Assembly (NCBI GenBank): GCA_022495995.1
Contig: JAFEMH010000743.1
Span: 170,001-234,000 of the forward strand
Reading direction: 5' to 3'
DNA length: 64,000 nt
From: Adenophora triphylla var. japonica
Lineage: Eukaryota; Streptophyta; Magnoliopsida; Asterales; Campanulaceae
In this document: positions 5,661 through 30,970 of the stretch, piece by piece
How positions within the stretch are numbered: position 1 is the stretch's first letter
How the letters are laid out: each line of letters opens with the position of its first letter
Notes under the pieces: model-generated
Database searches by the model: none
What the model was told of the DNA's origin: nothing
What the model saw: only the letters and a program-made list of their open reading frames with translations
Program-made: the position numbers and the translations under genes

Positions 5661-6619
5661 TGAAATTACCCGGATCCGAGAGGCAGCGCGATCGCGCCCC
5701 GGCATCTGGCATTTCCCCCGCTTTTGCAGCGGGTTTTTTCCGAGTTGGAGGTGTCTCGCCATTTGTTTTCGCATTTGTAGAGTCGCCACGCCGTTTTTAT
5801 TAAGCCCAAAACATTGAAAAAGGGCATCAGTTTAAAGATAATTTTAAACTGTTTTTGTGTGATGAGATTTTGAGTTCGGAGGTCAGATGACTCCTCGGGA
5901 AGAGAATATTAGAATATTAGAGCTCACCCGAGTTGCCTCGTAAAATGAGTCTTTCGGATACCCCTAATATCCTTTAAAATGTTATGTGTGTGTGTGTGCT
6001 TTTTAAAAATGCATGCTATGTCGGATGTCTACATTGTACACTACGTATTGAAATGTATTGAAATAGTAATGGAAGGAAGCCTTACCAATGTTGGTTCGTG
6101 TCTGTCTTCCGCTGAGGAATAGTGTTTGAGGTCGGAGTAGCGTTTCGGTATGGATCGGGATTGCTTTGGGAGGGGCCGGTTGTCTGTGGACAGAGTTTCG
6201 GCGTGAGTTGATGTTGCAGGCTGCGTTCGAGCAGAGGTTCGGCGTGCGTGGGGATCGCAGGGATCACTCGGGCAGAGGTTCGGCGTGCGTTGGGGTGGCA
6301 GGAGTCACTCGGGCAGAGTTTCGGCGTGGTTTGGGATCGCCGGTTTGACTCGGAAAGAGCCGGGACACCGTGGAAAGACCAGGCAAGGCCTCAGAGTACC
6401 ACGAGGGGCCTCAGAGTACCTCGAGAGTGCCTCGGGGCAGCGCGGGAGCGTCGCGGGAGCGCTCGGGGAGGCTTCGGAGCACCACAAGGGAGCTCGGAAG
6501 GCCTCGGAAGGATCCGAAAGGGGCCGGGAGTGCCTCGAGAGGACTTAGAGGGGAAGCCAGAAGGCCTAGGGAGGAAGAGAGAAGTGGGAGGTGTGTGAAA
6601 ATGAGGAGGGGGAGCCCTC

Positions 6620-6628
6620 TATTTATAG
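6620..6628 (-). promoter_or_regulatory. TATA box of E1 left LTR
   Basis: CTATAAATA on the minus strand in the U3 part, followed by GAGGGCTCC. It is conserved in the right LTR (22577-22585) and in the C LTR (55936-55943). Confidence 0.75.
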
Positions 6629-6648
6629 TGCCAGATTTGGTGCAAGAA

Positions 6649-6899
6649 GGTCCGTACGGACCTCCCTGGTAATCCAGACTTTTGGTTTTCCTCGATTTGA
6701 GGGAATCTGTGATGATGGTGAATATTCTGCAATTATGATGTTCCCTGAGCAATAAGGTCCGTACGGACCAACTTGACATGCAAAGAGGTCCGTACGGACC
6801 AACTCTGCAAGAGGGTAATCATTTTCCCTGGATTTGAGGGAATATTGTGGACTTTAAGAGGATTCAATAATTATTAAAGCAAAGAGGTCCGTACGGACC
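6649..6899 (-). promoter_or_regulatory. Four perfect 14-bp palindromes upstream of the LTR TATA box
   Basis: GGTCCGTACGGACC occurs at 6649-6662, 6756-6769, 6787-6800 and 6886-6899. In sense they lie about 20 to 270 bp upstream of the TATA box. The middle two start 31 bp apart with a 17-bp spacer ending in ATGCAAAGA. The same pair module occurs upstream of both antisense genes. A dimeric transcription factor site is the simplest reading. Confidence 0.75.
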
Positions 6900-7094
6900 A
6901 TGTGTGCTTTTCCAATTTCCTGAAAATTCCCAAAAGGTCCTTTTGTCCCTTTTGGTCCCAGAAAGGCCCCTCCCTTGGTTTGGCTGGGGGTTTTGAGAGG
7001 GTTTTGAGTGCCAGAGGTCGTCGAGACTGCGTTGATGAGTCTGCGGTGCTTCCCGTGTGCTTGAAAGGGGGTGATCCAGATTGGGGTACTTACA

Positions 7095-7106
7095 GAAGCC
7101 CCTCGA
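7095..7106 (-). other. Polypurine tract of E1
   Basis: On the minus strand GAGGGGCTTC abuts the 3' LTR, as expected for the plus-strand DNA primer. The same GAGGGGCT core abuts the LTRs of B and C. Confidence 0.75.
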
Positions 7107-7135
7107 CGACGTCACTTATGAAAGAAGTGGGGTCG
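7107..7135 (-). other. Conserved hairpin beside the polypurine tract (E1)
   Basis: Outer stem CGAC/GTCG and inner stem CACTT/AAGTG around a 7-nt loop. B and C have hairpins at the same place with different inner-stem or loop sequence (26594-26622 and 55499-55527), so pairing rather than sequence is kept. Confidence 0.55.
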
Positions 7136-7660
7136 CCGATAAGATAAGGGTCCTAATCTGGATCGCGTGGCCGGGAGATAAAGTGACCGGGAGGTCAGCG
7201 TAAGGACGTGGTGGTGTCCTATCGGGTGACCGCAGGCCGATGGGCCGGACCCCGCGATAGGATTCCTACGTATCCCCGGCGGGAATCAAGCCCGGTCGTA
7301 GTTCGGGTGTGGGGTGAGTGTTTTGTGAATGCGGGCGTGGTGGTGCCCCGAAGTGTCGTGTGACCGCCGAGGTCGTGGGTAAGGACGTGGTGGTGTCCCG
7401 GGTGACCGCATAGGTCGATGGCTGGACCCTGTGATAGGATTCCTACGTATCCCTGGCGGGAATCAAGCCTGGTCGTAGTTCAGAGGTCATGAATCTGTGA
7501 GTGCGGGCGTGGTGGTGCCCTGAAGTGTTGTGTGACCGCCGAGGTCAGTGTTAAGGACGTGGTGGTGTCCTAAGATGTGGTGACCGCCGAGGTCAAATTG
7601 TGAGGACGTGGTGGTGTCCTGGGATGGAAATTTTACGATTTTCCTAATCGGGTGGTTTAA
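7136..7660 (-). repeat. E1 3' region: hairpin repeats and two copies of a conserved 45-bp motif
   Basis: Noncoding. It holds several AGGACGTGGTGGTGTCCT-type hairpins (for example 7203-7220) and a GGGC..GCCC version at 7333-7348. The motif GGATTCCTACGTATCC followed by GGCGGGAATCAAGCC occurs at about 7259-7305 and 7437-7483. The same elements occur in B (from 26675) and in inverse orientation in C (54570-55404). No gene. Confidence 0.65.
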
Positions 7661-7875
7661 GGCCTTCCGGGCCGGGGATAGTGATTTGGGAGGTTTATAC
7701 GATCTTCCGGACCGAGTGGTTTAAAGACTTCCGGGCTGGAGGTAGTGATGGTGGAGGTTTATACGATCTTCCGGACCGAGTGGTTTAAAGCCTTCCGGGC
7801 TGGAGGTAGTGATGGTGGAGGTTTATACGGTCTTCCAGACCGAGTGGTTTAAAGCCTTCCCGGCTGGAGGTAGTG
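7661..7875. repeat. 64-bp tandem repeat, about 3.5 copies
   Basis: The unit reads AGTGGTTTAAAGCCTTCC then GGGCTGGAGGTAGTGATGG, followed by a GTTTATACGATCTTCCGGACC part. A diverged version in inverse orientation lies at about 54300-54470 in C. Confidence 0.7.
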
Positions 7876-7877
7876 TG

Positions 7878-8120
7878 AAGACTTGAGTCATCTTCTCCTT
7901 CGGCTGCGCTTGCCGTGCGTGAGGACTTTGAATCGTCTTCTGGCTGCGGTTTGCCATGCGTGAGGACTTTGAATCGTCTTCTGGCTGTGGTTTGCCATGC
8001 GTGAGGACTTGAATCGTCTTCTGGCTGTGGTTTGCCATGCGTGAGGACTTTGAATCGTCTTCTGGCTGTGGTTTGCCATGCGTGAGGACTTTGAATCGTC
8101 TTCTGGCTGCGGTTGTGGAG
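7878..8120. repeat. 41-bp tandem repeat, five copies plus one degenerate
   Basis: The unit contains GAGGACTTTGAATCGTCTTC and TGGCTGTGGTTTGCCATGC. It is noncoding, since the apparent ORFs are just the repeat read through. It lies between the polypurine tract and the PMD gene. Confidence 0.8.
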
Positions 8121-8660
8121 GTATGGCTGCCTTAAGTTTTGAGAGGTTTAGATGCCTCGTGCTTTGTATGTTGGGGAGAAGGTTGGACTTACGATGGCTG
8201 CCGGTGTTCATCCGTTGGGGATTTATCGTGGCCTTGTAGGGGCTTGCAAGGATTCCCTTTTTTTTTGACTTGCTGGGGAAGAAGCTCGGGCTTACTTTGA
8301 TGGCCGGTGTTTGCTTCACCATTTGGTGTTTTGGAGGCGTTTCGTGCCTTGGGATTTGTACTCGGAGGTGTTGGCTCCTTCTTGCGCTTGTTTTGCCGTT
8401 GAGTGGGCAAGGATGATGGCCGGTGCTGGGGATATGTAGTCTTGTACGACTTCCCTTTGACTTGTTGGGGAGGAGCTCGGGCTTACTTTGATGGCCGGTG
8501 TTTGAATTGCTGGGGATGCGTGACCTTGTAGGGGCCTTTTTCTGCTGGGAAAGTGTCTTCGGACCTGTTTTGAGGGCCGGTGCTTGAGTTGCCGTTGAGC
8601 GTTTTGGAGGCGTCTCGTGCCTTGATATTCGTGCTGGGAGGTGTTGGCTCCTTCTTGAAT
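8121..8660. other. Spacer with degenerate repeats
   Basis: About 540 bp between two minisatellites. It holds scattered relatives of the next unit (GCCGGTGCTTG, TTGCCGTTGAGTGGGC). No gene seen. Confidence 0.5.
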
Positions 8661-9125
8661 TGCCGTTGAGTGGGCGAGGACCGGTCTTACACTGACGGCC
8701 GGTGCTTGCGTTGCCGTTGGAGTGGGCGAAGTTCGGGCTTACACTGACTGCCGGTGCTTGCGTTGCCGTTGGAGTGGGCGAGGTCCGGTCTTACATTGAC
8801 GGCCGGTGCTTGCGTTGCCGTTGGAGTGGGCGAGGTCCGGTCTTACATTGACTGCCGGTGCTTGCGTTGCCGTTGGAGTGGGCGAGGTTCGGGCTTACAC
8901 TGACTGCCGGTGCTTGCGTTGCCGTTGGAGTGGGCGAGGTTCGGGCTTACACTGACTGCCGGTGCTTGCGTTGCCGTTGGAGTGGGCGAGGTTCGGTCTT
9001 ACACTGACTGTCGGTGCTTGCGTTGCCGTTGGAGTGGGCGAGGTTTGGGCTTACACTGACTGCCGGTGCTTGCGTTGCCGTTGGAGTGGGCGAGGTTCGG
9101 GCTTACACTGACTGCCGGTGCTTGA
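8661..9125. repeat. 52-bp tandem repeat, about eight copies
   Basis: The unit contains GACTGCCGGTGCTTGCGTTG, CCGTTGGAGTGGGCGAGGT and TCGGGCTTACACT. Copies alternate between 'gttcggg' and 'gtccggt' forms. Diverged relatives lie at about 53820-54120 in C. Confidence 0.85.
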
Positions 9126-9234
9126 ATTGAAGGGTTAGGGACCATTCTGCACTTGGATTTGCTGAAAAAGGCCTTAGGACGCCTAGGGCAAAGATTATAA
9201 GGGCAGAAAGTAATTTGGCCCTCCCTTGCAAGAA

Positions 9235-9279
9235 GGTCCGTACGGACCAACTCGGGATGCAAAGAGGTCCGTACGGACC
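9235..9279 (+). promoter_or_regulatory. Palindrome pair upstream of the E1 PMD gene
   Basis: GGTCCGTACGGACC at 9235-9248 and 9266-9279. The starts are 31 bp apart and the spacer ends in ATGCAAAGA, as in the LTR. The pair ends 155 bp before the PMD start codon. Confidence 0.72.
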
Positions 9280-9434
9280 ACTTTGATTTTTTACAGCTCC
9301 TGTGTTTTGACCGGGTTAAAAAGCCGAGGCATCCCCTTCATTTCCCATTCCCGCCACGAACCAGCCGAGAGAGAGAGAGGAAGAAACCTCCATTGTTAAC
9401 CAAAATCTTCCATTTTTCGCTTGAATCGCTTGCA

Positions 9435-12400
9435 ATGGCGGAAGGATCTCGAAGGAATCGTCGACAACGCAGTCAAGAAGTGGTCGAGCAACGGATGGAG
9501 CTCCAAAGAAATTGGATCTCGTTTGTTCCGTCTTTCAAAGAATCCGGATGTCTTGTATCCAAATCCGGAGGTGCACAATCGTCGTTCTAGGAACGTCGGG
9601 GAGGTAAGAAATCCGCTCCGTTTTGATTTCCTCGTCGAATTTTTTGAATGCTAGAACTAGGTTTTAGTTTTTCGCATTTTTGAATTTTTGTTATTTTTTA
9701 TGCCTTTTGTGAAATTCTTGATGAATTGTTAAAAATGGACATGTAAAAATTGTGGGTATGTGTATTTTGTGCAGAAATGTGTAGATTAGCTTTTATTTGT
9801 GAAAATAAAGTGCCTCTCTAATGAAATGCATGCTTTGGTGTTTTGTACCTAATGCTATTTATGTATGTACATTATGAGAAAAGTTTGTCGTGTAGTGACA
9901 AATTTTGTGAAAAAATGTGACATGTGCCGTATTTTGTGACGGGTTTTGTCTGAAAGTGTGTGCCGTGTAGGGACGGATTTTTGAAAATGTGTTATGCAGT
10001 GTGTGCCGTGTTCTTGGGTGACGGACTTTGTGGGGAAAATATGTGCAGTATGTGCCGTGTTTTTGTGACGGGTTATATGTGGTTTTGCCGTGTTGGGACG
10101 GACTTTTTATTTTGAAAATGTGTCGTGTAGGGCTTAATCCCACTTTTGAGAAAATGTGTACAGTGTGTGCCGTGTTTTGTGACGGACTGCATGGAAAAAA
10201 TTATGTATAATGCATGTCATTGTTTTGAGTTGCATGTAAAAAGTATGTGCAATATGTGCAGTGTTTCGTGACGAGATATATGTGAGAATTGCATGTGAAA
10301 ATTATGTGCAATATGTGCCGTGTTTTGTGACGGGTTATATGTGAAAAGTATGTGAAAATTATGTGCAATATGTGCCGTGTTTTGTGACGGGTTATATGTG
10401 AAAAGTATGTGCAATGTGTGCCGTGTTTCGTGACGAGATATGTATGCTTTGATTTTCTTTTGCATTAAGTACTGCGAATGACGTACCTTTGCTGTGTTTA
10501 CCTGCAGGATGAGGGGCTCATGGCTGGGAAGGCCAAGAGGATGAAGACTCGGGGATCGCTCGAGGCTGTTGTTGAGTTGTGGCAGCGGATGCCTGATATT
10601 TCTGTGGATGGTAGGCCGAGTCCCAGGAGGCTGGTCTACGCTTCTGGCCTGGGCGTGTTCGTAGAGAATTTGGCCGGGGTTTCTGACACGAGGAAGAACA
10701 AGAGCGTCTTCCTTGGCCTTTCTGAGTATTGGTGGGATACCACCCACACCTTCCATCTGAGCTGGGGAGAGGTGACAAAGTTGACGCCACCGACTTTGCC
10801 GCGACACGGCTTTCCTTCAAAGGAGGGCCGGTGCGGTGGCGAGATATGATTGCCGATGATGTGTTGACCGAGCTGCTGGGCTTTGAGCCTCGTCCTCGCA
10901 GGGGCCTGGGCATGTTATATAGCGATGTGGAGCTGAGGATCACGGCCAGTATCGGGGCCTATGTTCGGGGTACCGGCCAGGTGACGGCGGAGCAGCTGGC
11001 GCGCTCCTTTTTGTGGTTTGCACTTTCCGAGACTTTGTTCTCGAACCACGCGATCGCGGCTCCTTTTGCTCGCTGGAGAGCTTGATTGATCTGGAGAGGG
11101 TTTGTGATATCGCTTGGGGCGAGGCAGGCTTGGCCGAGCTCTACTTTTCTTTGGACCGGTTTAGCCGGGGTGTGGCCAGTTCTTTGGCCTGTTTTGACTT
11201 TGCTTTGGAGGTATAAGTTTATTGCTGTTTTTTGATTTAGCAACTTGTCGTTTCTCCGTTTTCTTTTGCACTGAGCCTTTTCGTTTTTGTCACAGTGTGG
11301 TTCTACGAGATTTTTCAAGCTTCCCGTGGGATAGAGATCCGGGGCCGTAGCCGCGTATCCCGCTATGCCGGGCCGGGCTCGTACGGCGAGGAAGAGGAGG
11401 ACCAGCAGAGGGAAGCTCACCATCGCCACGGGGATGTGCAGGAGCGTCCTGGAGAGGGGTAGCCCTGAGGGGTTTATTTTGTTCCCGTGGGCTCGGTGAT
11501 GAGGCCGATGAGTTCGAGGGGGCTCCCGAGGCGACAAATACAGCCGGAAGATGCCGCGAGGCCCGACTTGCGACGTCATGTACCCTGGGAGCGGGTCTTC
11601 CGGCAAAGATGGCCCAGGTGTGCTTCCCGTGGCTCCGAGGGACCCTCCTTTTGGGATGCTTGATTCTCGGGATATGGATGTGTTGGATTTTGAGAGGTAC
11701 CTTGGCGGTGTGGGTGCCGAGGAGTTTATTTTGTATGGAGAGGAGTATGGGGCCTTCGTGAGGAGGAAGTTGAGGACGCCACAAGTATCGCGAGGGAGAG
11801 AGAGGCCGGCCCGCAGTGTTCCCCTGCAGGTTCCGATGCCGGGGCCGGATTTCACGTATGTCCGTGGGGACGGATCGAGGAGGAGGGTGTCTCGTACCCG
11901 CTTCGAGCAGTGCTCCCGCCGCATACCGAGCGGATCCCGACAGACGCGAGTGTGCTTACTCTTTTCCATCTTGGCATCTTTTCGCATTTTTCTCTTTTTG
12001 TTGTTGAGTATAACCGTATTGCCGAGCGTTTCTTTCGTCGCTTGCTTGTGCAGTCCCGGGAGAGCCTATGATATGCCGACTCGCCGTTATGTGGCGACGA
12101 GGTCGTTTGCGAAGAAGATGGCGTCGAAGCCGTCTTGCCGGTCTTCCCGACGCGTGCCGGCGTACGAGCCTATGCCTTCGAGGCATTCTCAGACGTTCCT
12201 CCACCGAGAGCCGAGCCTGAGCCACGCAGAGGGACCTTCGAGGGGGCGGCATAGCATGGATGCCGGGACATCTTCTGAGCTCCGAGGCAAAGCAGCCCCT
12301 TTTATCGCTCTTCCTCGCCAGGATGCACAGGTGAGGGTTCGTCGTAGCCTTCTTTCTTTGATCCTTTCGCCGGATTTGATCCTTCGAGTACTTTGAGTAC

Positions 12401-12514
12401 CAGCCTTGAGGGGGCTCTCATTCGATGACGAGGACGTGACGGGCGAGTTCACCGGATGCCCGACTTCTCTCGGAGGACCTTGGCGAGGATGATGATGCCG
12501 AGGAGTCCGATTAG
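9435..12514 (+). pseudogene. PMD (plant mobile domain) gene of E1, four exons, frameshifted
   Basis: Antisense accessory gene. Inferred exons are 9435-9603, 10508-11211, 11296 to about 11950, and 12054-12514; the donors of exons 1 and 2 and the acceptors match those of the C copy. Exon 2 carries the aminotransferase-like plant mobile domain, with SEYWWDTTHTFHLSWGEVT and later GLAELYFSLDRFSRGV. Exon 3 has CDVMYPG and DFERYLGGV. The acidic tail EDDDAEESD ends at TAG 12512-12514 and matches the tail of the B copy. Exon 1 has one extra base against C, and exon 2 shifts frame after GEVT near 10785. PMD proteins exist as host genes (MAIN/MAIL1 family, linked to silencing and genome stability) and inside plant retrotransposons. 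The role here is unknown. Confidence 0.8.
9860..10440 (+). repeat. Minisatellite inside intron 1 of the E1 PMD gene
   Basis: Repeats of GTGCCGTGTTTTGTGACGGG with TTATATGTGAAAAGTATGTG between them. The C intron has a different, 29-bp array with related words (cacggcacac, cgtcacaaaacacgg in inverse orientation). Confidence 0.7.
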
Positions 12515-12850
12515 TATTCATTTGCTTTCCCTCTTTTCATATCTTCTCTTTTTTTTTTTTAGCAAATGTACATTTGATGTACCTGTAATAAAACACTCGT
12601 ATTTGCACGGCAAACATCATTTTATTTTAAGATGTAATGTCATTTTTGTGATTCCCGGGATTTGTCCTAGAAATTGTTGCTGTTATTATTTTTTTTTTTT
12701 GTGCATGCCACGTGAGCTGAGAGTGCGTTTGTGGTAGTGTTTGTTTGCCCGAAATGGCTTTGGCCAGTGTTTGGGCGCTTTGGAGTAAGGTCCCGCCGAG
12801 GACAAGGTTGTTGTACCATTTGGCCGGGAAATGGGTCATGGTTGCAAGGA
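12515..12850 (+). other. Intergenic DNA between the two antisense genes of E1
   Basis: T-rich DNA after the PMD stop, with T runs near 12549-12560 and 12690-12700 and 'aataaaa' near 12586-12592 that could serve polyadenylation. No gene seen. Confidence 0.4.
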
Positions 12851-12895
12851 GGTCCGTACGGACATACTTAGCATGCAAAGAGGTCCGTACGGACC
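12851..12895 (+). promoter_or_regulatory. Palindrome pair upstream of the second antisense gene of E1
   Basis: 12851-12864 reads GGTCCGTACGGAC plus A (one mismatch) and 12882-12895 is the perfect GGTCCGTACGGACC. The starts are 31 bp apart, and the spacer again ends in ATGCAAAGA. The pair ends 117 bp before the ATG at 13013. Confidence 0.7.
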
Positions 12896-13012
12896 AACCT
12901 TGCTTTTGGGAAGGAGATAAATGCTTTCCAAAGGTCTGGTTCTTCCCCATTTCCCCATTTCCCCATTTTCGAGCTTTCTTCCCCATTTTCTCTAGGAACC
13001 TCCATTTTTGCC

Positions 13013-14528
13013 ATGGATTCTTCGTACGTTCCTAGAATTTTGCCGAGGCTTTCGCAGGAGAGGCAAGCACACTTCCTTGAGCAGCTGAAAACGTGGATGC
13101 GGCGCCGTATGAGGCATCAGAGACGGGCTTTCGAGGTAAGGTTTCGTCTTTGCTCGATTTGGTCTTTTAAGGAGTTGGTTCCTGATTGGGATTTGTTGCG
13201 GGCTGCCGCGAAGTTCTGGGATGTTAGGAGGCATGTGTATTGCTTCTCCTACAATGAAATGGTGCCCACTTTTGAGGATTTTCGGGCTTTGATGGGGGAC
13301 CGGAGGTGGAGGCCATCTCGCTTCCTTTGATTGGTGGTGCTGCGGTGAGCGTGAAGCTTGCAGGCTTTCTTCGTACTTCGTTGGAAGAAGTGCAGGGCAT
13401 GATCCTTGATTCGGGTCATATTGACATTTCTGAGCTGCCGGAGCGGTTCATGGTTGATGATGAGAGTGATGTCTCTTGGGACGCATTTGCCTTGTGCGTG
13501 ATGGCGACGCTTTTCCTGGTCGCCTCCCTCGCATTTGCGATGGCGCTGCTAGATGTGGTAGGGCACCGCAGAGCCGGGAGAGGATATTGTCCCGTTGGTG
13601 CCGGGGGAGACTCTTCATGGTATCGACCGTCCGGCGACCGGGGATCGTTTCATGAGAGGGGGAAGCCCCGCTTTGCTCACCTTGTGGCCGCGAGAGAGAC
13701 TTCAGCCATGCCCGAGGCTCCGACGTCGTTTAGCCCGTGGTCATTTGCTCGCCGACCTCTTGTGTTGTATATGGATCACTCCGCCCGGGAGAGATGGATG
13801 GCACAGCCTTGGTACGCATCGATCCGTTGGTGGGTTCCTCACCGGAGGATTGAGACTAGGAGGGTCTTTCAGAAGGGTCCTACGTCGTTAGAGTTCCGTG
13901 TTTGTCTTGGTCCTCCTTCTATATTCCGTCGCTTGTTTCCTGCCAGCTTGGGATGAAGCAGGAGCCTTTGTTGGCCGGGATGACCTTGCTACCGCGGAGG
14001 TAGTTCCTCTTTGTATGGCAGCCTTCAGTGCCTTCTTGTATTTTCCGAGGGTATGGAAGTATTCCGCTTTCCCTCCCGTGGTACTCCTTAGACGTCTGGG
14101 AGCGTCGTATTGACGACTCGCACTCCGGCCCGGTATGAGCAGCGTGTTGGGCGTCCCAAGTGGTCTTGGAGAGCAGGCGTGTAGCGATTCTGGGACCCGG
14201 CTGCCGTAGTAGCTATTGCCTTAGGAGTGCCGAAGCCCGGTCCGACCCTTTCGATGTGACGGGAGACACTTTGTTTGACTACGAGACTAGAGTTGACCGA
14301 CCGACAGGAGAGGTCCTCTTTGCAGACTCGCAGGAGGAGATCCGAGCCGAAGCACGGCGAATGAAGCCCCGAGAGCTACCGGATTGTTTGACTCTACGGG
14401 GAGGACCCCGATCTCTGACCGAGAGACGCAGAGTTGGTTCACGTGGAGCGAAAGAAGACTCGCGGACGAGGGAAGAAAGGAAAGAATGGCGAGGGGACAA
14501 GCGCAGATGGCGCGGAATGACCTCCTAG
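13013..14528 (+). pseudogene. Second antisense gene of E1, DUF7745/PMD-like, frameshifted
   Basis: It starts at ATG 13013 (MDSSYVPRIL). Its N-terminal part has SFKELVPDWDLLRAAAKFWD and MVPTFEDFRALMG, the pattern of the plant retrotransposon-associated DUF7745/PMD-like proteins (a Trp-Asp helix followed by PT.E.F..L.G). Later parts are ISELPERFMVDD and SWDAFALCVMATL, then SIRWWVPHRRIETRRVF, where family members have a W..P motif. A charged Arg/Glu-rich tail ends at TAG 14526-14528. Frame changes near 13310, 13600 and 13900 show decay. B has the same gene at 30971-32451. The family name is recalled by pattern, not searched; the function is unknown. Confidence 0.65.
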
Positions 14529-15372
14529 GTATCCATTCATTGCATTTGCAAACACATTATTTGTTAAATGTATTAAGCTGTCTTTTAGCATGTTGTGAAC
14601 TTGAGAGTAGACCGTGCTTGAACTCATCAAGAAATGTTGTAACCGTTAGTGATTTGTGATTTACTTTTAAAGCTTTGTCGAGACGCAAGATCTCTTGTTT
14701 GCCTTTGTGTCTTTTGTGCACCTTGTCGGCGTCCGTCCTTGAACTTTTCTGTTGCGTTTGCGGATTGAAGCAGTCTGGGCCATGACGGCAATCCCCTTTG
14801 CTGAGGCTTTGTGCTTGGCTGAGAGGTTGAATGATCTCCTGACAAGTCGTTTTGACGGTCTTTTTCGCAGCTTCCTTGCCTCTTGTTGGCGTCGGGCTCT
14901 TGACCTCTTTTGGTAGCTTCTGCTTGAGCTTCTTTTATTTATTGTTTTTTTTTTGTGAGCCCTTGCTCGAGCTCTTTTTTTTTTATTTTATTTTTTTTTT
15001 GTGAGCCCTTGCTCGAGCTCTCTCTTTTTTTTGTGAGCCCTTGCTCGAGCTCTCTTTTTTTTTTTGAAGCGCGTGAAGGCAAAGACAAGCCCCTGGCTTG
15101 GAAGCAGACATACGAGTCACGTTTGATGCTGAGTGACCCTCGGATGTCCTTTAATGTTGCCGCCGTCGTTTGACTTGGTCAAGGTGACTGTTGGGGCGTG
15201 TTCTTGAAAAGTGCGTAGCTTGATGGAGGTCTTGATTGACATTCAAACTTTTGACTTTTTGTGTATTTTTAGACCGGACCAATTAAGGTTGCCTACGTCT
15301 CCTGACTAGAGGGCTCAGTCCGCGTAGTTCGACACTACATGGAGTGCCAAGAGATGCACAGCTTGTTCTTCT
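14529..15372. other. Convergent intergenic region with T-rich GCTCGAGC repeats
   Basis: It lies between the 3' end of the antisense gene and the 3' end of pol, which face each other. At about 14950-15068 there are three copies of a T-run followed by GTGAGCCCTTGCTCGAGCTC, holding the palindromes GCTCGAGC and GAGCTC. Such a place could hold transcript 3' ends. No gene. Confidence 0.5.
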
Positions 15373-16650
15373 TCAGCGAAGTATCTCGCGAAGTTTGCTT
15401 CCGTTGACCGGATTCATGAAGGGATTGCCGTCTAGGTCCTGTCGCCTTCATGGCACCTCCGGAGAAGATCTTTTGAACCACGAAAGGGCCGATCCATGTG
15501 GGTTCCCATTTTCCCAGTGGGTTGGTTCGAGTGGGAGGCTTTTCTTTGAGTACAAGGTCGCCTTCCCTGATGTCTCGGATTTGACTTTCTTGTCGAAAGC
15601 TCTAGCCATCCCGCTTTGATAGGCTCGGACGTGTTCCATGGCCTTTAGTCGTCGCTCGTCTAGCGTGAGCCAATTCGTCATGTCGGCTTCGAGCCATTCA
15701 ACTTCGTTGATGTCATTTTCCAAAGAAGACTGGAGTGAGGGAATTTCCAATTCAATGGGAAGGACTCGCTTCCATCCCGTATGTCGTGGCGAATGGGGTT
15801 TCTCCCGTGGCCTTCGACCGATGTGCGGTAGCCCCAAAGTGCAAGGTGCAGCTTCTCGGGCCAATCTCGTCCTCGGGTGGTCATTTTTCGGATGATCCGT
15901 TCGAGGGTTTTGTTTGCTGCTTCCACGGCGCCGTTTGTTTGTGGCCGGTAGGGAGAAGATTTGTGGCGTGTGATCTTGCATTCAGCCAGCAGTCTGTCGA
16001 ATTCCCCCTCGAAGTGTGAACCATTGTCTGATATGACCTCATTTGGGATGCCGTATCGGCAGATGATGTTTTCCTTGAGGAAATGCGCGACCTTCTTGGA
16101 GGTGAGTACCTTGTAGGACTTGGCTTCGACCCATTTGGTGAAGTAGTCGATGGCTACTAAGATGAACTCGTGACCGTTGCCGCCCGGGCGGAGCAATTTT
16201 CCCGATGACGTCAATTCCCAAGTGGCAAATGGCCAGGGTGTAGTCATGCAAGAGAGATCGTGGGGCGGCAGATGATTGAGGTTAGAGAACCGTTGACACT
16301 TGTCGCAGCCTTCGGACAAAGTGGATGCAATCCGCTCCATGGAGATCCAAGAGTAGCCCATCCCGAGAATGATTTGCATCGTGGCTGGCGTTCAGGTGGG
16401 GACCGCAAGCTCCATTGTGGACTTCTGTCATGCACTTGTTTGCTTCTTCCTGGCTGATGCAGCGTAGGAGTGGCCCATGGTAGCGTTTCTTGTATAGCAT
16501 GTCCCCGAGGATGACGAAGTGAGAGGCGAGGCGTTTTAGGGCCATGATGCTCTTGGTTTTGACCCCTTCTGCGTGTGGGTCTTCCTTGTTCATGAAGGTA
16601 GTTTCCCGCTCTTGAGGTATTGGAAGATCCGGTTTGGCCGGAAATGGCGT
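15373..16650 (-). pseudogene. pol: E1 integrase
   Basis: Retroviral-type integrase on the sense (minus) strand. Visible motifs are the degenerate zinc region (CDKCQRFSN), YFTKWVEAKSYKV, the middle Asp in ISDNGSHFEGEF and the Glu in NGAVEAANKTLE. The first Asp segment is frameshifted (WELTSS where B reads WGIDVIG). The C-terminal part has DERRLKAMEHVRAYQSGMARA, and a short PVNGSKLREIL tail ends at the stop 15373-15375. Upstream of it the RT and RNase H domains are absent. B has the equivalent at 32901-34025. Confidence 0.85.
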
Positions 16651-17687
16651 CTGACTTGCGTCTCTTTGGCTCTTCAAAGAATCTTGCAAATCGTTGTGAT
16701 TAAAACCTTCTCGGCAGCTTGGGCCCGGTTTTTCTCTCGTTTGACAACATGCTTAAACGTTTGCTTGATGCATTTATTCAATTAATGTGTTTGCCTTTTG
16801 TATAGATGAATTGTTATTAACTGTTTTGATTAGTTAATATCATCGTTTGTTAAAGATGCAATGAAATGATTTTTTAGAAAGGTCGGACCTTTATTGAAAG
16901 CATGAAGACCGTACATTGTTGATCAAAGATTCACAATCGTCGGCGTAAAGCCGTCAAAAGACTCAAAAGATGTGAATTCACGTACAACAAGACTCGAAGC
17001 TAGACTATAGGTGACGAGGGATTGGACCAGCTTCATTACTCTCCTGATGGCTGTAGCTCTAGAGGGAGTGGTGCTGGTTCGGGTGGCCAGTCTTCCCTTG
17101 GCATGAGTCCCGGAAAATAGCTTGCATGCGGTTCGATTTCAAACCAGATCGCGGAGGTTTTTGGTTGTTCCCCTGATGATGTCCCTCCATTAGTGTTGCC
17201 ACCACCCTGGGGGTTTTTGATGATAGAAGTCGCCGAGGGCTACTTCTAAGAGGGCGAAGCATTCGCCGATCTCGGAGTTGATTCTTGCCGATGTTGATCA
17301 CTTTCATAGAATCCGCCTTTATCTCGGGATCTTTGCTTGGACGACGTTTACAATGTCTCGATTCGAGCGGGCATGCTATATCTCCTTCCCCGATTAAGCC
17401 TTGGAGGAGGTTGCGCCACTGCTCATCCAGGTCGGACACCGAATGTTGAATTGAACTAAGCCGTGATGGCCGTCCCCGTAAGATCCGAGAGTGTCGGCTA
17501 GAGGGTTGTCTTGTACCGGGGATCGGTGATGAGCCGCTTGCGAGGGTTTTCGGCGAAGTAAGGGTCTACTCCTCGATCAATCTCCATTAGGGCATCCATC
17601 TCTTGATCCTCTCTTAAGCATTCTTCACGCCGCATATATCGTAGTTGTCATCTTGACCCATGAGCTCTTCGATTTCCACTGTCGCGC
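16651..17687 (-). pseudogene. pol: E1 pol spacer before RT, with RT and RNase H deleted
   Basis: The segment between protease and RT (KADSMKVINIGKNQLR near 17300 is a pre-RT motif). From about 16651 it matches the B spacer near 36125 onward (the words 'gtctcttt' and 'cggcttgggcccgg'). Just below 16650 the sequence instead matches the B integrase linker near 34100. In B these points lie about 2 kb apart with RT and RNase H between them, so E1 lost that block. A long protease-RT spacer is also seen in B and is known in Ogre-type elements. Confidence 0.65.
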
Positions 17688-18250
17688 TTAGAGCGTGGAT
17701 GTAAGGATCCACTTCGTAGCGGGACAGGTAGGAGAATCATCTGGAGAAGAGTATTCGGTCATGTCGGGACCTTCTTCCGGGTCATAGCTTGCCGGCCAAG
17801 CACTTGCCATTGCACCGCTTCCGCGGATCACTTCGATCGCTCCATTGGCATTGATGAATTTCACGCATTGGTGAAGAGTAGATGATACCGCTTTCATCCG
17901 ATGTATCCAAGGTCGTCCCAAGAAAGCAGAGAAGGTTGGTTTGATTTCCACGACTTGGAACTCTACCGACTCTAGTTGTACGTCGAATTGGATCCTCAGA
18001 TTGATGACTCCTACGATTGGTCGTGCAGTGGAATCGTAGGCTCGGATTACCCGAGGTGAAGGCCTTATTAGAGAGCAGTCGATGCGGAGTCGTTTCAATG
18101 TGCTCAAAGCGATGATGTTGATGGAGCCGTTATCAATCAAGACGTTCGGGAGGAAGAACATCTCTATTTTTATGAGGATGAGGAGGGCTTCGTTGTGCCG
18201 ATTCTCACATATTGGCAAGTCATCGTCTCGAAGGCTAAACCGCTTCCCGT
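17688..18250 (-). pseudogene. pol: E1 aspartic protease
   Basis: Retropepsin-like domain with active site LIDNGSINII (D-N-G-S in place of D-S/T-G-A, as in other Tat elements). FSAFLGRPWIHRMKAV and TLHQCVKFINANGAIEV follow. The open stretch 17688-18218 is fairly intact. The upstream gag is in other frames. It would cut the Gag-Pol polyprotein. Confidence 0.78.
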
Positions 18251-20295
18251 GCTACCGTTTGACTCGCCTCTTCGGGGAACGTTCGATCCATCCATTTGTA
18301 TGCCTTGGTTGGGGCAAAGATCGTAGGGAGACAGCTTGCCCTGGGCGTTCTTGTCGAATTCCCGGCCACGAGACCTTTGACTCGGTTTCACGCTCCCACA
18401 TAGCGGGACAAAGATGCCGACGGTTTCGGAAATTGCAGGGGTCCGCTCTCGCTTGGAGTTTCGTCAAAGGCTATTGAGTTTACCCCGTCGTTCCGGGGAA
18501 TGGATTTCCGATGGTATTGGGACCACGAGGGCGTTCCAATTTTCCCTCCTCAATGAGCCCCCGGACCACCCGCTTGAGCACGAAGCAATTGTCGGTGGTG
18601 TGGCCGGGTAGTTGTGGAAGGCGCAAAGGCTTGCTCATATCCATGTTGGGTTTGGGAGTCTTCGGTTGGAAATTCTCGAGCGGCTTGAGAAGATTTCGTT
18701 TCACCAAAGCTTCAAATACTTGACCCAAGGGCATTTCAAGGTTGTCTAAATGTTGGAACCGTGGGAAGCGAGGGGGATTGTTATTCTTTGGGGCCGCTTG
18801 ATCGCGGTTTACTTGAGCTCCGTTCGAATGTAGTGTATCGTTCCTACGCTTCTTTTCCTTTGGTCGGGGCAGAGTTGAAGTTGCTGTGTTTGTTCGATAA
18901 CGGTAAGACGAGGCAGGGTTGCCGTTGCCTTTTGAAGACTCGTAGTCTTTTCAAACTTTGTCCCGGCGTTGACCATGGCACGGAAGATCCTGATAGAAAT
19001 GGTGGCCGATCAAGGTCCTCAAAGATGGCTTGAGGCAGAATGGAAGATGTCCATCTCGCTCTTCTTTGGAAAGTGGATCCATTATCTCGCTTAGCTTCCG
19101 GGCCCATCTTTGTAGAACTCGCCCACCGGTTCGTCATCCTTTGTTCGGTGGCTTGTGTGTCATGGCGGTTTGTCTCCCATTCAAGGTTGGCGCGATACTT
19201 CTCCAGAAGATTTCACCGATCCGATCCCACGTGGAGCGGTTTTCTCGCCTTCACATTGAGGAACCACCTTAGTGCCGTGGATTTGAGGGAATGCCGAAAG
19301 TGATCTCGCCATCCGTTGAGGGGTTGCCCCTTTCGCTCTCATACCCGTGACGTAGGTGTCGATGTGGGTTTTTGGGCATTCTCGTCCCGTCAAACTTTTC
19401 CATTTCCGCATCCCGAACTTTGAGGGAGAGGGACCACTTTGTTCGGATCAAGCAGGCGTGAGGGAGTCCTTCCGAGAACTAGCTAGCTTGCCTTGCATGT
19501 CCTTCATTTGTTCGATAAGCCAAGCCATGCTGGGATCACTGTCTGAGGTGGGTTACCGTTTTCGTGGACGGAAACCGAAGATGGAGGTGGATTGGCCGAC
19601 GGGATCGCCATTCGGGAGTCTTGGGGAGGTAGTTGAGTGTATACCAACCCATACCCCGGGGTGTTGAAGTTGAGGGCGTGATTGCCAGGTCCGCTAAGGG
19701 TTGTGTTTGGGAACCGGGGAAATGATTCGTTAGCCCCAATCGCGTACTAGCAGTGGCAAACTTGAGATGCCTGGATATCCGCTCGGGATGCCCGTCCCCG
19801 GTAAGCATGGGGACTTTTGATTGTGGTTGCGAGGCTCGTATAGAGGCAAAGGATTGAATCCCTGGGATACCGAGATGCATTGGGATCTCGCGGAGTGCAC
19901 GTATGTGTGCCGCTGGTACCGAGCTTGACGTGCGTGAGCCGGAAACCGACCGTGGCCGAGGCGGGCATGCCTGAGCCGCTGACCGACGCCCGAGGGGAGC
20001 TTTGAGCGAGAGCCGCTTGCGTTGCCGGGATCTCGTAGCTTGGCGGAGGCGGGACTTGCCGATAGCTTTGAGAAACCGGGAGCCAGATGTCTTCGTCCTC
20101 TATGAGAACAAAGGTTCCATCAAAGTTGGGATCGCAATCGTTCCTCGAAGACGCAAGGTGTCTACGATCCAGGCTTGCTGTTCTTCTTGGCGCTTCTTGA
20201 TGGTTTCGAAGGCTCGCAGCACCTCCTCCATTGTCCTGGAGGTTCCTTAGTGGCGGGGTTCCGTTTCCCTCACCGTTATCCGTCGATCCCGTCAT
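18251..20295 (-). pseudogene. gag: E1 gag (fragmented)
   Basis: The start at 20295 (MTGSTDNGEGNG) is chosen by analogy with the B gag start. Recognisable pieces are FDGTFVLIEDEDIWLPV and YRQVPPPPSYEIP (compare VPPPPTYGVP in B), CPKTHIDTYVTGMRAKGAT near 19370, and PGHTTDNCFVLKRVVRGLI with EEGKLERPRGPNT near 18550-18600. The latter is a zinc-knuckle tail whose first Cys is lost. Pieces lie in several frames, so many indels exist. Encodes the particle protein. Confidence 0.75.
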
Positions 20296-20848
20296 GGGAG
20301 AGTAGCGGACGGTGCACCGTTGAACCGGAAGGGCTATCGGACCTTGTGACCTCGATATCGAAAAGGCGGCTTCCTGTGTATTCTCAACCACTCTCGGTTC
20401 GCGCGGAGGGGGTGACGGGCAAGGTTTAGACACAGGAATGGCCTCACGGGATAAAAGGGGGGGAAAGCTCACGTGGCATGCGGTTTCCGTTTCTTTTTTT
20501 TTATGATTTTTTTTTGTTGTTTTAATTTACTTAAAACATGTTTTCTCAAAGTCCTAGGTCGGTTGGAAAAGATTGCTCTTCTTTTTCGCAACTATGCTAG
20601 ATCCCGGGTCACCGGAGACCATCTCGTGCGGCTATAAGCCCCTCGTTTTGCACCCGTATTTCGACATCCCAGGGTGGACAGCCCTGTGCGAGGGTCCTAT
20701 AGTGCAAGCGGTTTCCACCGCCTAAAAGAAAATCGAACCTAAGGACCGAGCCTGTCATGTTCGTTTTGATGCATTAGCCATGTGAATAGTGAACCGAGCC
20801 GCCACCGAGTCAAGATCGTGTCAAGAGTTCGGCATGACCTTCTCTTGC

Positions 20849-20862
20849 CTTGCTTGCGCAAG
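20849..20862 (-). other. Leader hairpin 1 of E1
   Basis: Stem CTTGC/GCAAG with loop TTGC, which contains the palindrome TTGCGCAA. The B leaders have CTCGC/GCGAG at the same place. Confidence 0.5.
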
Positions 20863-21028
20863 GGATCTCGTGACGTTAGGCGTTAGCCGGGTCATATTGT
20901 CATGGCCGACGTATCAAAGGCGTGATGACATGGTGTCATGTGAGCATGGATGTATATCCGGACGGAACATCGTCTGGTGTAGCTTCGAAATCAAGATCAG
21001 TCAAGATTTTAGCATGACCTTTCATCGC

Positions 21029-21042
21029 TTTGCTTGCGCAAG
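21029..21042 (-). other. Leader hairpin 2 of E1
   Basis: Second copy of the block after GCATGACCT: TTTGC/GCAAG (one G-T pair) with loop TTGC. Confidence 0.45.
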
Positions 21043-21255
21043 GGATCTTGAGTTCCGAGCCTTGACTTAAAATGGCCGACATGGTATATGTATCCAGCCG
21101 TATGACACGGACCGGGTAAAACCAACCGAGTCCGGACAGAGTGTGACTCAAGACTCAAACGTGTGGTTGACGTCCGCTAGGATGGGATGTTTGGAATGAT
21201 CCCGCGCGCGTCCAAGAGGCCTAGGAAGACCAAACGGATCGCAACCGAGACCACT

Positions 21256-21372
21256 CCGGTTGAGGGTTGTAGTGTGCGTGTATCCGAGGCAAAGAAGGCG
21301 CGTAGCGTGCGGTGTAACCGAGGCAAAGAAGCAGTGAGTAGTGTGCGGTGTAACCGAGGCAAAGAAGGCGAG
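21256..21372. repeat. Short tandem repeat in the E1 leader, three copies
   Basis: The unit contains GTGCGGTGTAACCGAGGC followed by AAAGAAG. B leaders have looser relatives (near 42300-42370 and 48730-48800). Confidence 0.65.
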
Positions 21373-21606
21373 TAATGCGGTCTCTAAAATTCTTTTTCCG
21401 AGTAAAACAAGTTTTTGAAGAATTTTAAATGTATGTACATGTATATTGATGCATTTTTTTGTATTTTTATTTTTTTTGTAAAATAAAAAGTAAAGCACGT
21501 GCACACACACACAACAGTTAAAGAAAGGGGTAAAATGAAAGTTTGACCCTCATCATCGTTTTTAAAAATCTTTTGTTTTGTTTAAAAAGATTTTAAAACA
21601 AAACGT

Positions 21607-21624
21607 TCCCCAGCGGAGTCGCCA
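21607..21624 (-). other. Primer binding site of E1 (tRNA-Arg type)
   Basis: The plus strand reads TCCCCAGCGGAGTCGCCA, two bases from the LTR at 21627. The minus-strand TGGCGACTCCGCTGGGGA is the primer site type assigned to tRNA-Arg in Ogre/Tat elements. This fixes E1 orientation as minus. Confidence 0.85.
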
Positions 21625-21626
21625 AC

Positions 21627-23036
21627 TGAAATTACCCGGATCCGAGAGGCAGCGCGATCGCGCCCAAGATCCGGCATTTCCCCGCTTTTGCAGCCGGGTT
21701 TTTTCCGAGTTGGAGGTGTCTCGCCGTTTGTTTTCGCATTTGTAGAGTCGCCACGCCGTTTTTATTAAGCCCAAAACATTGAAAAGGGCATCGCTTAAAG
21801 ATAATTTTAAACTGTTTTTGTGCGATGAGATTTTGAGTTCGGAGGTCACATGACTCCTCGGGAAGAGAATATTAGAAGATTAGAGCTCACCCGAGTCGCC
21901 TCGTAAAACGAGTCTTTCAGATACCCCTAAGATCCTTTCAAATGTTGTGTGTGTGTGTGTGTGCTTTTAAAAATGCATGCTATGTCGGATGTCTACATTG
22001 TACACTACGTATTGAAATGTATTGAAATAGTAATGGAATGAAGCCTTACCAATGTTGGTTCGTGTCTGTCTTCCGCTGAGGAATAGTGTTTAAGGTCGGA
22101 GTAGCGTTCCTGCACGGATCGGGATTGCTTGGGAGGGGCCGGTTGTCTTTGGACGTAGTTTCGGCGTGAGTTGATGTTGCAGGTGCTGCCGCGTTCGGCA
22201 GAGGTTCGGCGTGCGTGGGGATCGCAGGATCACTCGGGCAGGTTCGGCGTGCGTTGGGGTGGCAAGAGTCACTCGGGCGTAGTTTCGGCGTGGTTTGGGA
22301 TCGCCGGTTTGACTCGGAAAGAGCCGGACACCGTGGAAAGACTGTGCAAGGCCTCTGAGTACCACGAGGGGCCTCAGAGTACCTCGAGAGTGCCTCGGGG
22401 CAGTGCGGGAGCGTCGCGGAGCGCTGGGAGGCTTCTGAGCACCACAAGGGAGCTCAAGGCCTCGAAGGATCCGAAAGGGGCCGGGAGTGCCTCGAGAGGA
22501 CTTAGAGGGGAAGCCCGAAGGCCTAGGGAGGAAGAGAGAAGTGGGAGGTGTGTGAAAATGCGGAGGGGGAGCCCTCTATTTATAGTGCCCAGATTTGGTG
22601 CAAGAAGGTCCGTACGGACCTCCCTGGTAATCCGTACTTTGGTTTTCCTCGATTTGAGGGAATCCGTGATGATGGTGAATATTCTCGCAATTATGATGTT
22701 CCCCGAGCAATAAGGTCCGTACGGACCAACTTGACATGCAAAGAGGTCCGTACGGACCAACTCGCAGAGGGTAATCATTTTCCCCGGGATTTGAGGGAAT
22801 ATTGTGGACTTTAAGAGGATTCAGTAATTATTAAAGCAAAGAGGTCCGTACGGACCATGTGTGCTTTTCCAATTTCCTGAAAATTCCCAAAAGGTCCTTT
22901 TGTCCCTTTTTGTCCCAGAAAGGCCCCTCCCTTGGTTTGGCTGGGGGTTTTGAGAGGGTTTTGAGTGCCAGAGTTGATGAGTCTGCGGTGCTTCCCGTGT
23001 GCTTGAAAGGGGGTGATCCAGATTGGGGTACTTACA
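21627..23036 (-). repeat. E1 5' LTR (right copy)
   Basis: Same termini and internal order as the left copy: GT microsatellite (about 21944-21963), TATA box, and palindromes at 22607-22620, 22714-22727, 22745-22758 and 22843-22856. It differs from the left copy by many single changes and small indels, often at CAG, CTG, CCG or CGG sites. Confidence 0.92.
22577..22856 (-). promoter_or_regulatory. Promoter of E1 5' LTR: TATA box plus four palindromes
   Basis: CTATAAATA on the minus strand at 22577-22585, with GGTCCGTACGGACC at 22607, 22714, 22745 and 22843 upstream of it. The 22714/22745 pair keeps the 31-bp period. This is the LTR that would drive the element transcript. Confidence 0.72.
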
Positions 23037-24578: not shown

Positions 24579-26580
24579 TGAAATTACCCGGATTCGCGCG
24601 AGCGAAGGCGGTTGTCTTTCGCGGGGGGTTGGTGTCTGAGACCTCGCTTCATGGGCAGGAAAAAAATGAGGAGTCGCCACGCGGTTTTTGTATTTTGAGC
24701 CCAAACGTTGAGAAACGGCTTTAGAAAATGGTGTCGTTTTTATTGGTAGCAAAAACTTAGGAAAAGGCTTTGAGAACAGGGGATCATTTTTATTGGTAGC
24801 AAAAATGAGTAAAAAGATTTTTTAGTACCAGAGATTGTTAGGTTCGGAGGTCATGTTACGTTTCGGGTAGAGTATTACGAGATCGCCCGAAACGCCTCGC
24901 ATGACGAGTCTTTCTACCTTTCTCGAAAACGTGTGTGTGTGTGTTTGTGTGTTTTGAAATGGGGGCTTGAATGACAAGCTTAATCTTGGTTTGAATGTCA
25001 AACGTTGATTAGGTGACTTTGTTTGAAAAGACGAGCGTTTGAATGACAAACGTCGGTTTTGAGTTGAAATGAGCGTTTGCCTGGCAAACGTCGATTTTGA
25101 GCTTTTGAAAAGGAGTTCGAAGGTCGAACTCCTGTTTTTTGAACCGGGCGTGTCATTGTTAATGATTTTTACGGGAAAAAGCGTATTAAATGTTTTTAAG
25201 TGTCAAATGGCGGCTTTTAGTTTGAAGATGAGCGTTCGGAGGTCAAACGTCATTTCGCGTGTTTTGAAAGAGAGTTCGAAGGACGAACTCCGGTTTTGAA
25301 CCGGGCATTACATTGTTAACTATTTTTACGGGAAAAATGCGTATTAAATGATATGCGATCAACGAATCGGGTTGCGACACAGACTTTGAAAAGTAAATAC
25401 TATCACGATCCAAACGGGTCGGACTTTGTAAATGACAGTATTTAAAGTGCGGTATCAACGGAATCAAACAATCCGGAATTGTAAATGACGATCGACGAGT
25501 CAAACGACTCGGAATTTTAAATGACGATCAACAAGGCCAATCGGCTCGGAATTGTAAATGACAGAAATTAAATGACGATCAACAGATCGATCGATCCGGA
25601 ATTGTAAATGACGATAAAGAAAATGGAACGGGGTCGGAATGCCGTTTTAACCCGTGATTACTTCTCTTACGGAAAGAGAAGAGGATCGAGGGGCTAAAAC
25701 GTATCGGACCCCATTAGACGGAGGCGTCTACATTTTGATAACGTTGTTCGAAACGGTTGTAGCAACTGGCGCGTAAACTGAGACGAAACAAGAGATTTAG
25801 AGAGAGGGAGTTATACCTATGGCTAGGGTCAACTCCTTTGGCTCGGAAGGTGTGTACGGGACACGAAAATTAGTTCGAAAGGGTGTTTTGAAGTGATGAG
25901 GGGCGTATTTGATCGAAATACGGAAGTTTCACGCGAATCGAGGCAAACGGGAGCTCGGGAAGGGGTGAAATCAGTTTGGGCCGTGAGGAGAGTGATTTTT
26001 TGGGTAAAAAAGTTCCTTCTTTTGGCTTTGACAGCCATTTCTATTTATAGGTGAAAATTGCAGTAGGAGTCCGGACGGACTTGGACTGTTTTTCAGGGTT
26101 TTGGGGTATTTTGCTGAAATTCTGAGGGGCTTACTGGCAATTTCAGGAAATTTGCACAGGGAGTCCGGCCGGACTTTGACTGAAATCCAGGGGTATTTTG
26201 GTCTTTTCAGCTTGATTTGTGATTGAAAGGTGACGAGAGGGCTGTGGCATGCTGGACACGTGTCCTGTGACTCACCCTTTGCATGGGAGTTCGTTCCCCG
26301 GTCCCGGTTTTGTCCGTTTTTTAAAATAACAGTCCGGAAAATGTCCGAAATGCCCCCGGAAAGTGCCGAAAAGTGCGTTTTTCAGGGAAAGCCATACTTT
26401 TACGTGAGATGACACGTGTCAAGTATGCTTTGACGTTGGGATGCACGGGACAGTCCCGGGACGTCTCGTTGGCACGGCAACGGGGAGTTTAACGAGTTCC
26501 GGTTAACCTGGAGCGGGCCAGTTAACGGATTTCGGTTAACTTTCTGACGGATTTTGACGATCCGGATTTGGGTACTTACA
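24579..26580 (-). repeat. LTR B1
   Basis: The plus strand starts TGAAATTACCCGGATTCGCG and ends GGGTACTTACA; 2,002 bp. Its termini are shared with E1 but the middle is different. It contains a GT microsatellite near 24929-24950, many short relatives of GAGCGTTTGAATGACAAACG (arms GCGTTTG/CAAACG), a TATA box and two palindromes. It acts as the 3' LTR of internal 1. Confidence 0.88.
26041..26175 (-). promoter_or_regulatory. LTR B1 TATA box and palindromes
   Basis: CTATAAATAG on the minus strand at 26041-26050. Upstream of it in sense are AGTCCGGACGGACT at 26068-26081 (6-bp arms) and the perfect palindrome AGTCCGGCCGGACT at 26162-26175. They occupy the place of the GGTCCGTACGGACC sites of E1. Confidence 0.68.
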
Positions 26581-30427: not shown

Positions 30428-30970
30428 TCCTCTTTTTTGTATTTTCTTGCTTTGTTTAGACAAAATGCATGTATTGTCGGGAACAATTTGATTTGAGCTG
30501 TATTCGAAAAAGGCGCCGTGGGGCGGAACACATGCCTTCGCACATTTATTACGTGATCACCTTACATTATTTTCGGCAAATAAGGAAGTAGGTTAATCAA
30601 AAATAAATAAAATGAGAAATGCATTAAAAATTGAACGAGGTCAAAATTTAAGCCTATATGCACGATTATTAATTATTTGCCTTTGTTGCACGAGCCGAGG
30701 CGGAAGGGATATTGATATTGGTTGAATGAAACCGGGGGCGGCACGCGGGTTTCATAAGGATGAATAGGGAGTTGTTTGGAAATGTTTCCAATTTAGGGGC
30801 GGTAGGCTGCGAGTTGACAAGTCAGCTGCGAGAGAGTCCGTAGGACTAGGAGTGAATTTACGATTCTTTAAATTGCGGTTTCGGCTTTGCAATTGTTTAA
30901 GAAGCTGCGCATTGTTTTTTGATCATTACATTTGAATTCTCTCAAACTTTCAAGGTTTCCTTCATTCTTT
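30428..30970 (+). other. Intergenic DNA between the two antisense genes of B
   Basis: AT-rich, with 'aaaataaataaaatgag' near 30600-30616. No palindrome pair of the E1 type and no gene seen. Confidence 0.4.

Follow-up and report, generated by a model that had tools for sequence, protein, structure and literature searches.

The window analysed here, 64,000 nucleotides of Adenophora triphylla var. japonica (contig JAFEMH010000743.1, positions 170,001 to 234,000 of the forward strand), carries a Tat/Ogre-type long terminal repeat (LTR) retrotransposon, E1, in which two genes antisense to the element are situated between pol and the 3' LTR, the first with a plant mobile domain (PMD) and the second weakly DUF7745-like. 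A palindromic 14-mer, GGTCCGTACGGACC, occurs near the TATA box of the LTR and again upstream of both antisense genes. Related families, of which B lies in the window and F in DNA fetched from elsewhere, have other palindromes at these three promoters, whilst C, another element of the window, shares that of E1. The palindromes differ by family, yet their promoter positions agree.

Perfect copies of the 14-mer start at 6649, 6756, 6787, 6886, 9235, 9266, 12882, 22607, 22714, 22745, 22843, 53673, 53704, 55795 and 55901. Allowing up to three mismatches the window holds 19 matches against 1.83 expected from shuffles, with none of 100 shuffles reaching 19, and so the original prediction of a paired palindrome at the LTR, at gene 1, at gene 2 and in C is confirmed. 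Some details of that prediction have shifted. The pair at 12851/12882 keeps its 31-bp spacing but the site at 12851 is not perfect, having one mismatch (GGACA), and a pair given as 55795/55808 proved to be one site read twice, 55808 being its last base; the true partner of 55795 is a degenerate site at 55764 with three mismatches, 31 bp away. The LTR pair is indeed there, but it belongs to a set of four sites present in both E1 LTRs (at 6649, 6756, 6787 and 6886 in one, at the equivalent places in the other). As to the TATA box, the LTR promoter is on the minus strand, and the single site at 6649 is the one placed beside CTATTTATA. Measured from site start to ATG the gene sites lie at 200 and 169 bp (gene 1) and at 162 and 131 bp (gene 2), rather than 117-168 bp before the start codons. 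That three E1 spacers end in ATGCAAAGA is correct. An exact spacing of 31 bp applies to all pairs in the window, but in the window together with 16 stretches taken for, or near, LTR sites (L005-L020; L numbers designate fetched stretches) spacings of 30 bp (nine cases) and 31 bp (16 cases) are found. Strict helical phasing at 31 bp as an essential rule was set aside, since 30 bp and LTR steps of 97-107 occur and the B genes 1 and 2 have single sites. The LTR and gene modules of E1 have the same strand sense though the LTR and the genes are transcribed oppositely, and so the orientation of the palindrome to transcription is not fixed. A 15-base palindrome, CAAAAGGTCCTTTTG, is also present further upstream in E1-type LTRs (6931-6945 and 22888-22902 in the window, 634-648 in L019).

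Table 1. Elements, antisense genes and palindromic sites in the window
Feature	Coordinates	Strand	Remarks
E1, Tat/Ogre-type LTR retrotransposon	5661..23036	-	LTRs 93.9% alike (LTR comparison); target-site duplication; LTR ends
CCCAC target-site duplication flanking E1	5656-5660 / 23037-23041		
E1 3' LTR	5661..7094	-	TATA string CTATTTATA (as read on +) at 6619
E1 TATA-proximal LTR palindrome	6649..6662		starts 30 bp from CTATTTATA
E1 LTR palindrome pair 6756/6787	6756..6800		spacing 31
E1 fourth LTR palindrome	6886..6899		
E1 pair 9235/9266 upstream of antisense gene 1	9235..9279		
E1 antisense gene 1 (PMD, PF10536)	9435..11213	+	ATG 9435; second exon to about 11213; exon limits are a reading of the sequence
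E1 pair 12851/12882 upstream of antisense gene 2	12851..12895		first site GGACA
E1 antisense gene 2	13013..13953	+	weak DUF7745 (PF24924) match, 0.008, below curated cut-off; frame broken
E1 5' LTR	21627..23036	-	sites 22607, 22714, 22745, 22843
B1 LTR sites	26068..26175		AGTCCGGACGGACT (26068), AGTCCGGCCGGACT (26162)
B1 gene-1 promoter site AGTCAGACCGGACT	27563..27576		162 bp before ATG 27725
B1 gene-2 promoter site AGTCCGTAGGACT	30835..30847		decayed; 136 bp before ATG 30971
B1 other LTR, sites	44241..44346		AGTCCGGACGGACT and AGTCCGGCCGGACT again
B2 LTR, sites	50701..50805		AGTTCGGCCGGACT and AGTCCGGCCGGACT
C palindrome pair upstream of PMD gene	53673..53717		gene on minus strand, ATG near 53505
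C 3' LTR	55540..56913	+	sites 55764 (degenerate), 55795, 55901

Family B uses a second palindrome at the same promoters. Its LTRs occupy roughly 24.6-26.6, 42.7-44.7 and 49.1-51.2 kb of the window, and the TATA-proximal site, AGTCCGGACGGACT in both LTRs of B1 and AGTTCGGCCGGACT in B2, is followed 91-94 bp beyond by AGTCCGGCCGGACT in all three. Matches to AGTCCGNNCGGACT that depart from it by no more than one base, or equally close matches to a 13-base form added after the gene-2 site had been seen, occur in 24 of 1276 overlapping 200-bp windows, every one of them in a B LTR or over a B1 gene-1 or gene-2 site, and simulated upstream regions equalled the real ones in 0 of 1000 cases for gene 1 and 1 of 1000 for gene 2, the gene-2 half of the simulation being post hoc. 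L019, fetched for an E1-type LTR, contains a gene 2 of B type in which the homologous position is taken by a perfect AGTCCGGCCGGACT, and is an independent case in line with what was expected of the B gene-2 site. In L023-L029 a perfect B site stands beside gene-1 exon-1 homology in seven of seven, at gene 2 in the three that reach it and at the LTR in the six that reach it; these stretches were picked from places listed for the AGTCCGGCCGGACT search, so presence of the site follows from selection but its placement does not. B LTRs have further palindromes, GGACACGTGTCC (26254-26265), TGACACGTGTCA (26410-26421) and GTCCCGGGAC (26453-26462), the last recurring in all three.

A third case is family F, a diverged relative held by L021, which was fetched from the left of the E1-type element in L005 for the rest of the L019 B-type element, and in which RGTCCGNNCGGACY is absent. 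In the best same-frame tblastx blocks (other blocks being lower) F agrees at 58% of amino acids with the C PMD and at 78% with E1 gene 2. All six CCGNNCGG in the 8.6 kb of L021 fall into three pairs, at the LTR (31 bp, the TATA string lying 32 bp from the start of the first site), at gene 1 (30 bp) and at gene 2 (31 bp), the site centres being TG in four, TA in one and CC in one. Simulated sequences of the same dinucleotide make-up (Markov) had a mean of 0.71 CCGNNCGG with 4 the largest number, and a 30/31-bp pair arose in 0 of 300. A second F-type LTR, in L012, has its pair at 31 bp. As pairs exist in F with another tag, the paired layout recurs with a different palindrome. When six elements are tabulated (E1, L005, B1, L023, L024 and F), the TATA-proximal LTR site lies 27-32 bp from CTATTTATA in five, L024 being without that string, and in all six a gene-1 site lies 158-178 bp and a gene-2 site 130-177 bp before the ATG, taken as the first one 90-230 bp downstream, a limited search range that agrees with the start codons read for E1 and B1.

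Genome-wide GGTCCGTACGGACC is present exactly 47,555 times in 2.48 Gb, with a reversed control at 0 and about 9 due by arithmetic to chance, and the B palindrome AGTCCGGCCGGACT 8,174 times, with a reversed control at 1. The 31-bp pair pattern was found 0 times in viral_contigs and 0 times in genome_contigs, and the exact palindrome string had no mention in the literature searched. Among 70 perfect E1-type sites (the window and L005-L020 with overlaps taken once, L001-L004, which are overlapping stretches of one further place, being excluded), GCAA stands seven bases before the palindrome on one side only in 52, on both in six and on neither in 12, and so the E1-type unit is mostly composite, GCAA-NNN-palindrome. 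A tally of 103 NGTCCGNNCGGACN sites gives G..C arms with TA in 70, A..T arms with GC in 21 and others in 12, these being from 257,700 distinct bases fetched for these tags and hence not genome frequencies. Mixed E1/B tags (G..C with GC, or A..T with TA) make up none of the 103. Of the two crosses the one with E1 arms and B core, GGTCCGGCCGGACC, was counted genome-wide at five copies (control 0), which is about chance; the opposite cross is AGTCCGTACGGACT.

Copies were also chosen by coding sequence and not by tag. A search with E1 gene-2 coding DNA gave 2768 first-look candidates, from which the best 40 were scored and upstream DNA was taken from 20 of the 39 non-window copies, all close relatives at 98-100%. 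In these a site lies 131-135 bp before the ATG in 20 of 20 (17 perfect, three with one mismatch) and a distal site lies at 31 bp in 19 (18 GGACA, one with three mismatches), one copy having a single site; mean agreement with E1 is 0.97 at sites, 0.91 in the rest and 0.90 in the spacer. The GGACA departure seen at 12851 in the window is common to the distal gene-2 site of 18 of the 20 copies (L031-L050). The equivalent B gene-2 search (2126 candidates, best 40 scored, 20 of 39 fetched) produced no promoter among the 20 within three mismatches of the E1 tag, and by eye B-type arms are at the homologous place in all 20, with small deletions, insertions or AATCC variants. The E1-type gene-2 copies have thus preserved their sites well, and decay marks the close relatives of B1. 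E1-type gene matches occur in six of L005-L020 and in none of the other ten; L005 has both the gene-1 and the gene-2 pair, and L009 combines the gene-1 pair with a lone gene-2 site that carries one mismatch. A possible gene-1 deletion subfamily is represented by L006, L007 and L008.

Local alignments among the upstream regions of the E1 LTR, gene 1 and gene 2, made with all three in one strand sense, extend for 53, 55 and 66 bp and then stop. The proposed origin of the gene promoters in a duplicated LTR piece is thereby unsupported for a long duplication, which was set aside as the homology does not go beyond the module; the short module itself may at some time have been copied. A neutral account, in which such a module was template-switched from the LTR into the gene promoters and has been kept by descent with no common binder, could draw on the spacer letters AACT....ATGCAAAGA common to the E1 LTR and gene-1 modules and on the shared strand sense at LTR and genes. 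Upstream of gene 1, however, all 28 site bases are identical between E1 and C, whereas elsewhere in the 300-bp region 197 of 266 aligned bases agree (flanks 74%) and nine of 233 non-site 14-base windows are perfect. Moreover the placement is the same in three families, and the F and B flanks, judged by eye only, are unlike LTR copies although the tags match. Neutral spread is thus already largely contradicted and appears very improbable. The two LTRs of E1, when compared, are identical at 56 of 56 site bases and at 1283 of 1345 aligned bases in the rest, though perfect windows are also common outside the sites (683 of 1313).

The C copy of gene 1 matches the plant mobile domain PF10536 at 1.5e-22, above the curated cut-off, and the E1 gene-1 pieces at 1.6e-06 and 0.009, both below it; other than PMD nothing in the antisense segments of E1 and C is above cut-off. 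A long repeat-rich stretch between the exons of E1 gene 1 is read as an intron. The exon 1-exon 2 interval holds repeats at 9640-10480 (E1), 52428-52745 (C) and 28116-28433 (B), their unit differing among E1 (by eye), C (29 bp) and B (37-38 bp). The Retand marker TRP28 (PF04195) is absent from 10 E1/C antisense and seven B1 plus-strand segments, where broken frames could hide a decayed domain. Searches elsewhere with the PMD protein yielded one short JGI metagenome protein (P0001) and no confirmed locus in viral_contigs; relatives of the gene-2 segment elsewhere were not found, and no solved structure matched PMD by sequence. E1 sits within another Ty3 element, on the plus strand, whose pol it has split between RNase H and integrase, so that the domains for reverse transcriptase (RT), RNase H and RVT_3 are found left of E1 and that for integrase right of it. 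A domain scan of E1 itself gave no RT/RNase H match. In L007, an E1-type copy, RVT_1 lies in one segment and the next has RT_RNaseH, RVT_3, Integrase_H2C2 and rve in that order, and this domain order places a second RNase H between RNase H and integrase, as is described for Ogre and Retand (PMC6317226). An antisense PMD gene near the 3' LTR, as in C with PF10536 above cut-off and in E1 with pieces below, occurs in 57% of Ogre elements (PMC6317226). Rfam at gathering threshold and a tRNA scan each returned 0.

Sites, positions, conservation and the difference among three families are read directly from the DNA. Co-regulation by one DNA-binding factor, as was originally proposed, is well supported by comparison, two other families having a palindrome of their own at each of these three promoters. 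A single sequence-specific factor, probably a dimer, would have the palindromes as its putative binding sites and would control three promoters of one retrotransposon, that of the LTR and those of the antisense PMD and DUF7745-like genes. A tag that changes from family to family and yet agrees within an element suggests a co-evolving factor, and its being element-encoded, as the product of one antisense gene or of both together, is the simplest reading. Such a factor would diverge jointly with its sites, leaving each family with its own palindrome at all three promoters. On balance it seems probable that a predicted factor of this kind, encoded by the element, forms a family-private autoregulatory loop which activates or de-silences the element. 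Whether plant Tat/Ogre retrotransposons have in their antisense PMD/DUF7745 genes sequence-specific regulators that recognise a family's private palindrome both at the LTR and at the promoters of these genes, a lock-and-key pair whose divergence between families would insulate co-resident ones, is evenly balanced.

Host factors are commonly used by plant LTRs, and one host transcription factor might drive all three promoters, the GTAC-core palindromes being SBP/SPL-like and other families perhaps having switched factors. E1-type and C sites do hold GTAC, the SBP core (PMC13234004). However, GTAC is lacking from the B tag, whose core is GGCC, and from five of the six sites of F in L021, at the same position and use, and there is no obvious reason why a host factor should have a family-differing tag matched at the three promoters of each element. 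We regard a host factor as unlikely. A protein at the sites, element-encoded or host, could also repress, in copy-number control or in nucleating silencing. The site anatomy would be identical under repression and activation, each perfect E1-type site has two CpGs (eight in four sites), and the host PMD proteins MAIN and MAIL1 act in silencing of transposable elements (PMC7156037). Long retention of the sites over tens of thousands of copies suggests a benefit to the element, yet does not tell whether regulation is positive or negative. Repression appears distinctly unlikely, and we infer binding, an element-encoded binder, and activation or anti-silencing in preference to repression.

Several observations weigh against an element-encoded regulator reading its own tag. 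E1 itself has broken frames in its antisense genes, a scan of 10 antisense segments (E1 and C) matched no DNA-binding domain, and the AlphaFold model of PMD is too poor for use (mean pLDDT 45.2). In the LTRs E1 and C agree less well at the sites (39 of 56 bases; rest 1028 of 1273 aligned), with 241 of 1313 non-site windows perfect, and the four E1 LTR sites have in C two perfect counterparts, one with three mismatches and one missing. In the nearest B1 kin gene-2 sites are perfect in two of 20, within one mismatch in nine and worse (ungapped) in 11, and the F consensus AGCCGTGCGGCT, drawn by eye, is exact at one of six sites. Gene 1 has no match in L006, L007 and L008, although LTR sites and a gene-2 pair are present there, and in L015 the interval from PMD exon 2 to the LTR holds no palindrome.

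The nearest precedent for the layout is the foamy virus Tas protein, one element-encoded factor that binds the LTR and an internal promoter of the same retroelement (PMC4929722). At sequence level E1, B and F similarly share a site between LTR and internal promoter, but here it is in a plant Ty3 retrotransposon, with two internal promoters antisense to gag-pol and with short palindromic tags, known from sequence alone, that differ between families. Family-specific short non-coding motifs which differ among related families are a feature of the VANC anti-silencing system of Arabidopsis VANDALs, in which an element-encoded protein binds the motif and DNA methylation is removed (PMC5735166), and three tags in three families are of that type, although VANDALs are DNA transposons without LTRs and VANC binding is proven (PMC5735166); the stem 'palindrom' occurs 0 times in that paper. 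Grande gene23, Retand TRP28 and the Ogre PMD extra open reading frames likewise lie antisense between pol and the 3' LTR, the Grande gene has its own promoter, and nuclear or regulatory roles have been suggested for such antisense open reading frames, whilst a promoter tag shared with the LTR is unmentioned in the available portions of these papers (PMC7264820, PMC11963269, PMC6317226). The Retand TRP28 domain differs from the PMD/DUF7745 domains here. MAIN and MAIL1 are likewise PMD proteins linked to a promoter motif, 'DOWN', but they are host genes, and the reader of 'DOWN' has yet to be named (PMC7156037). The literature searched, of incomplete coverage and available in part, has no mention of plant LTR retrotransposons whose LTR and accessory genes have such a tag in common, and describes the role of the antisense accessory genes as undetermined (PMC7264820, PMC11963269).

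Overall the E1-type tag is very abundant, at over 47,000 copies in one 2.5-Gb genome, and each family looks as if it has its own matching switch on the LTR and the two antisense promoters. A direct prediction follows from a shared tag which changes with the family, namely that a family's own product binds its own tag and not that of its neighbour. If this is true, the antisense accessory genes would stand beside Tas and VANC as element-encoded regulators.

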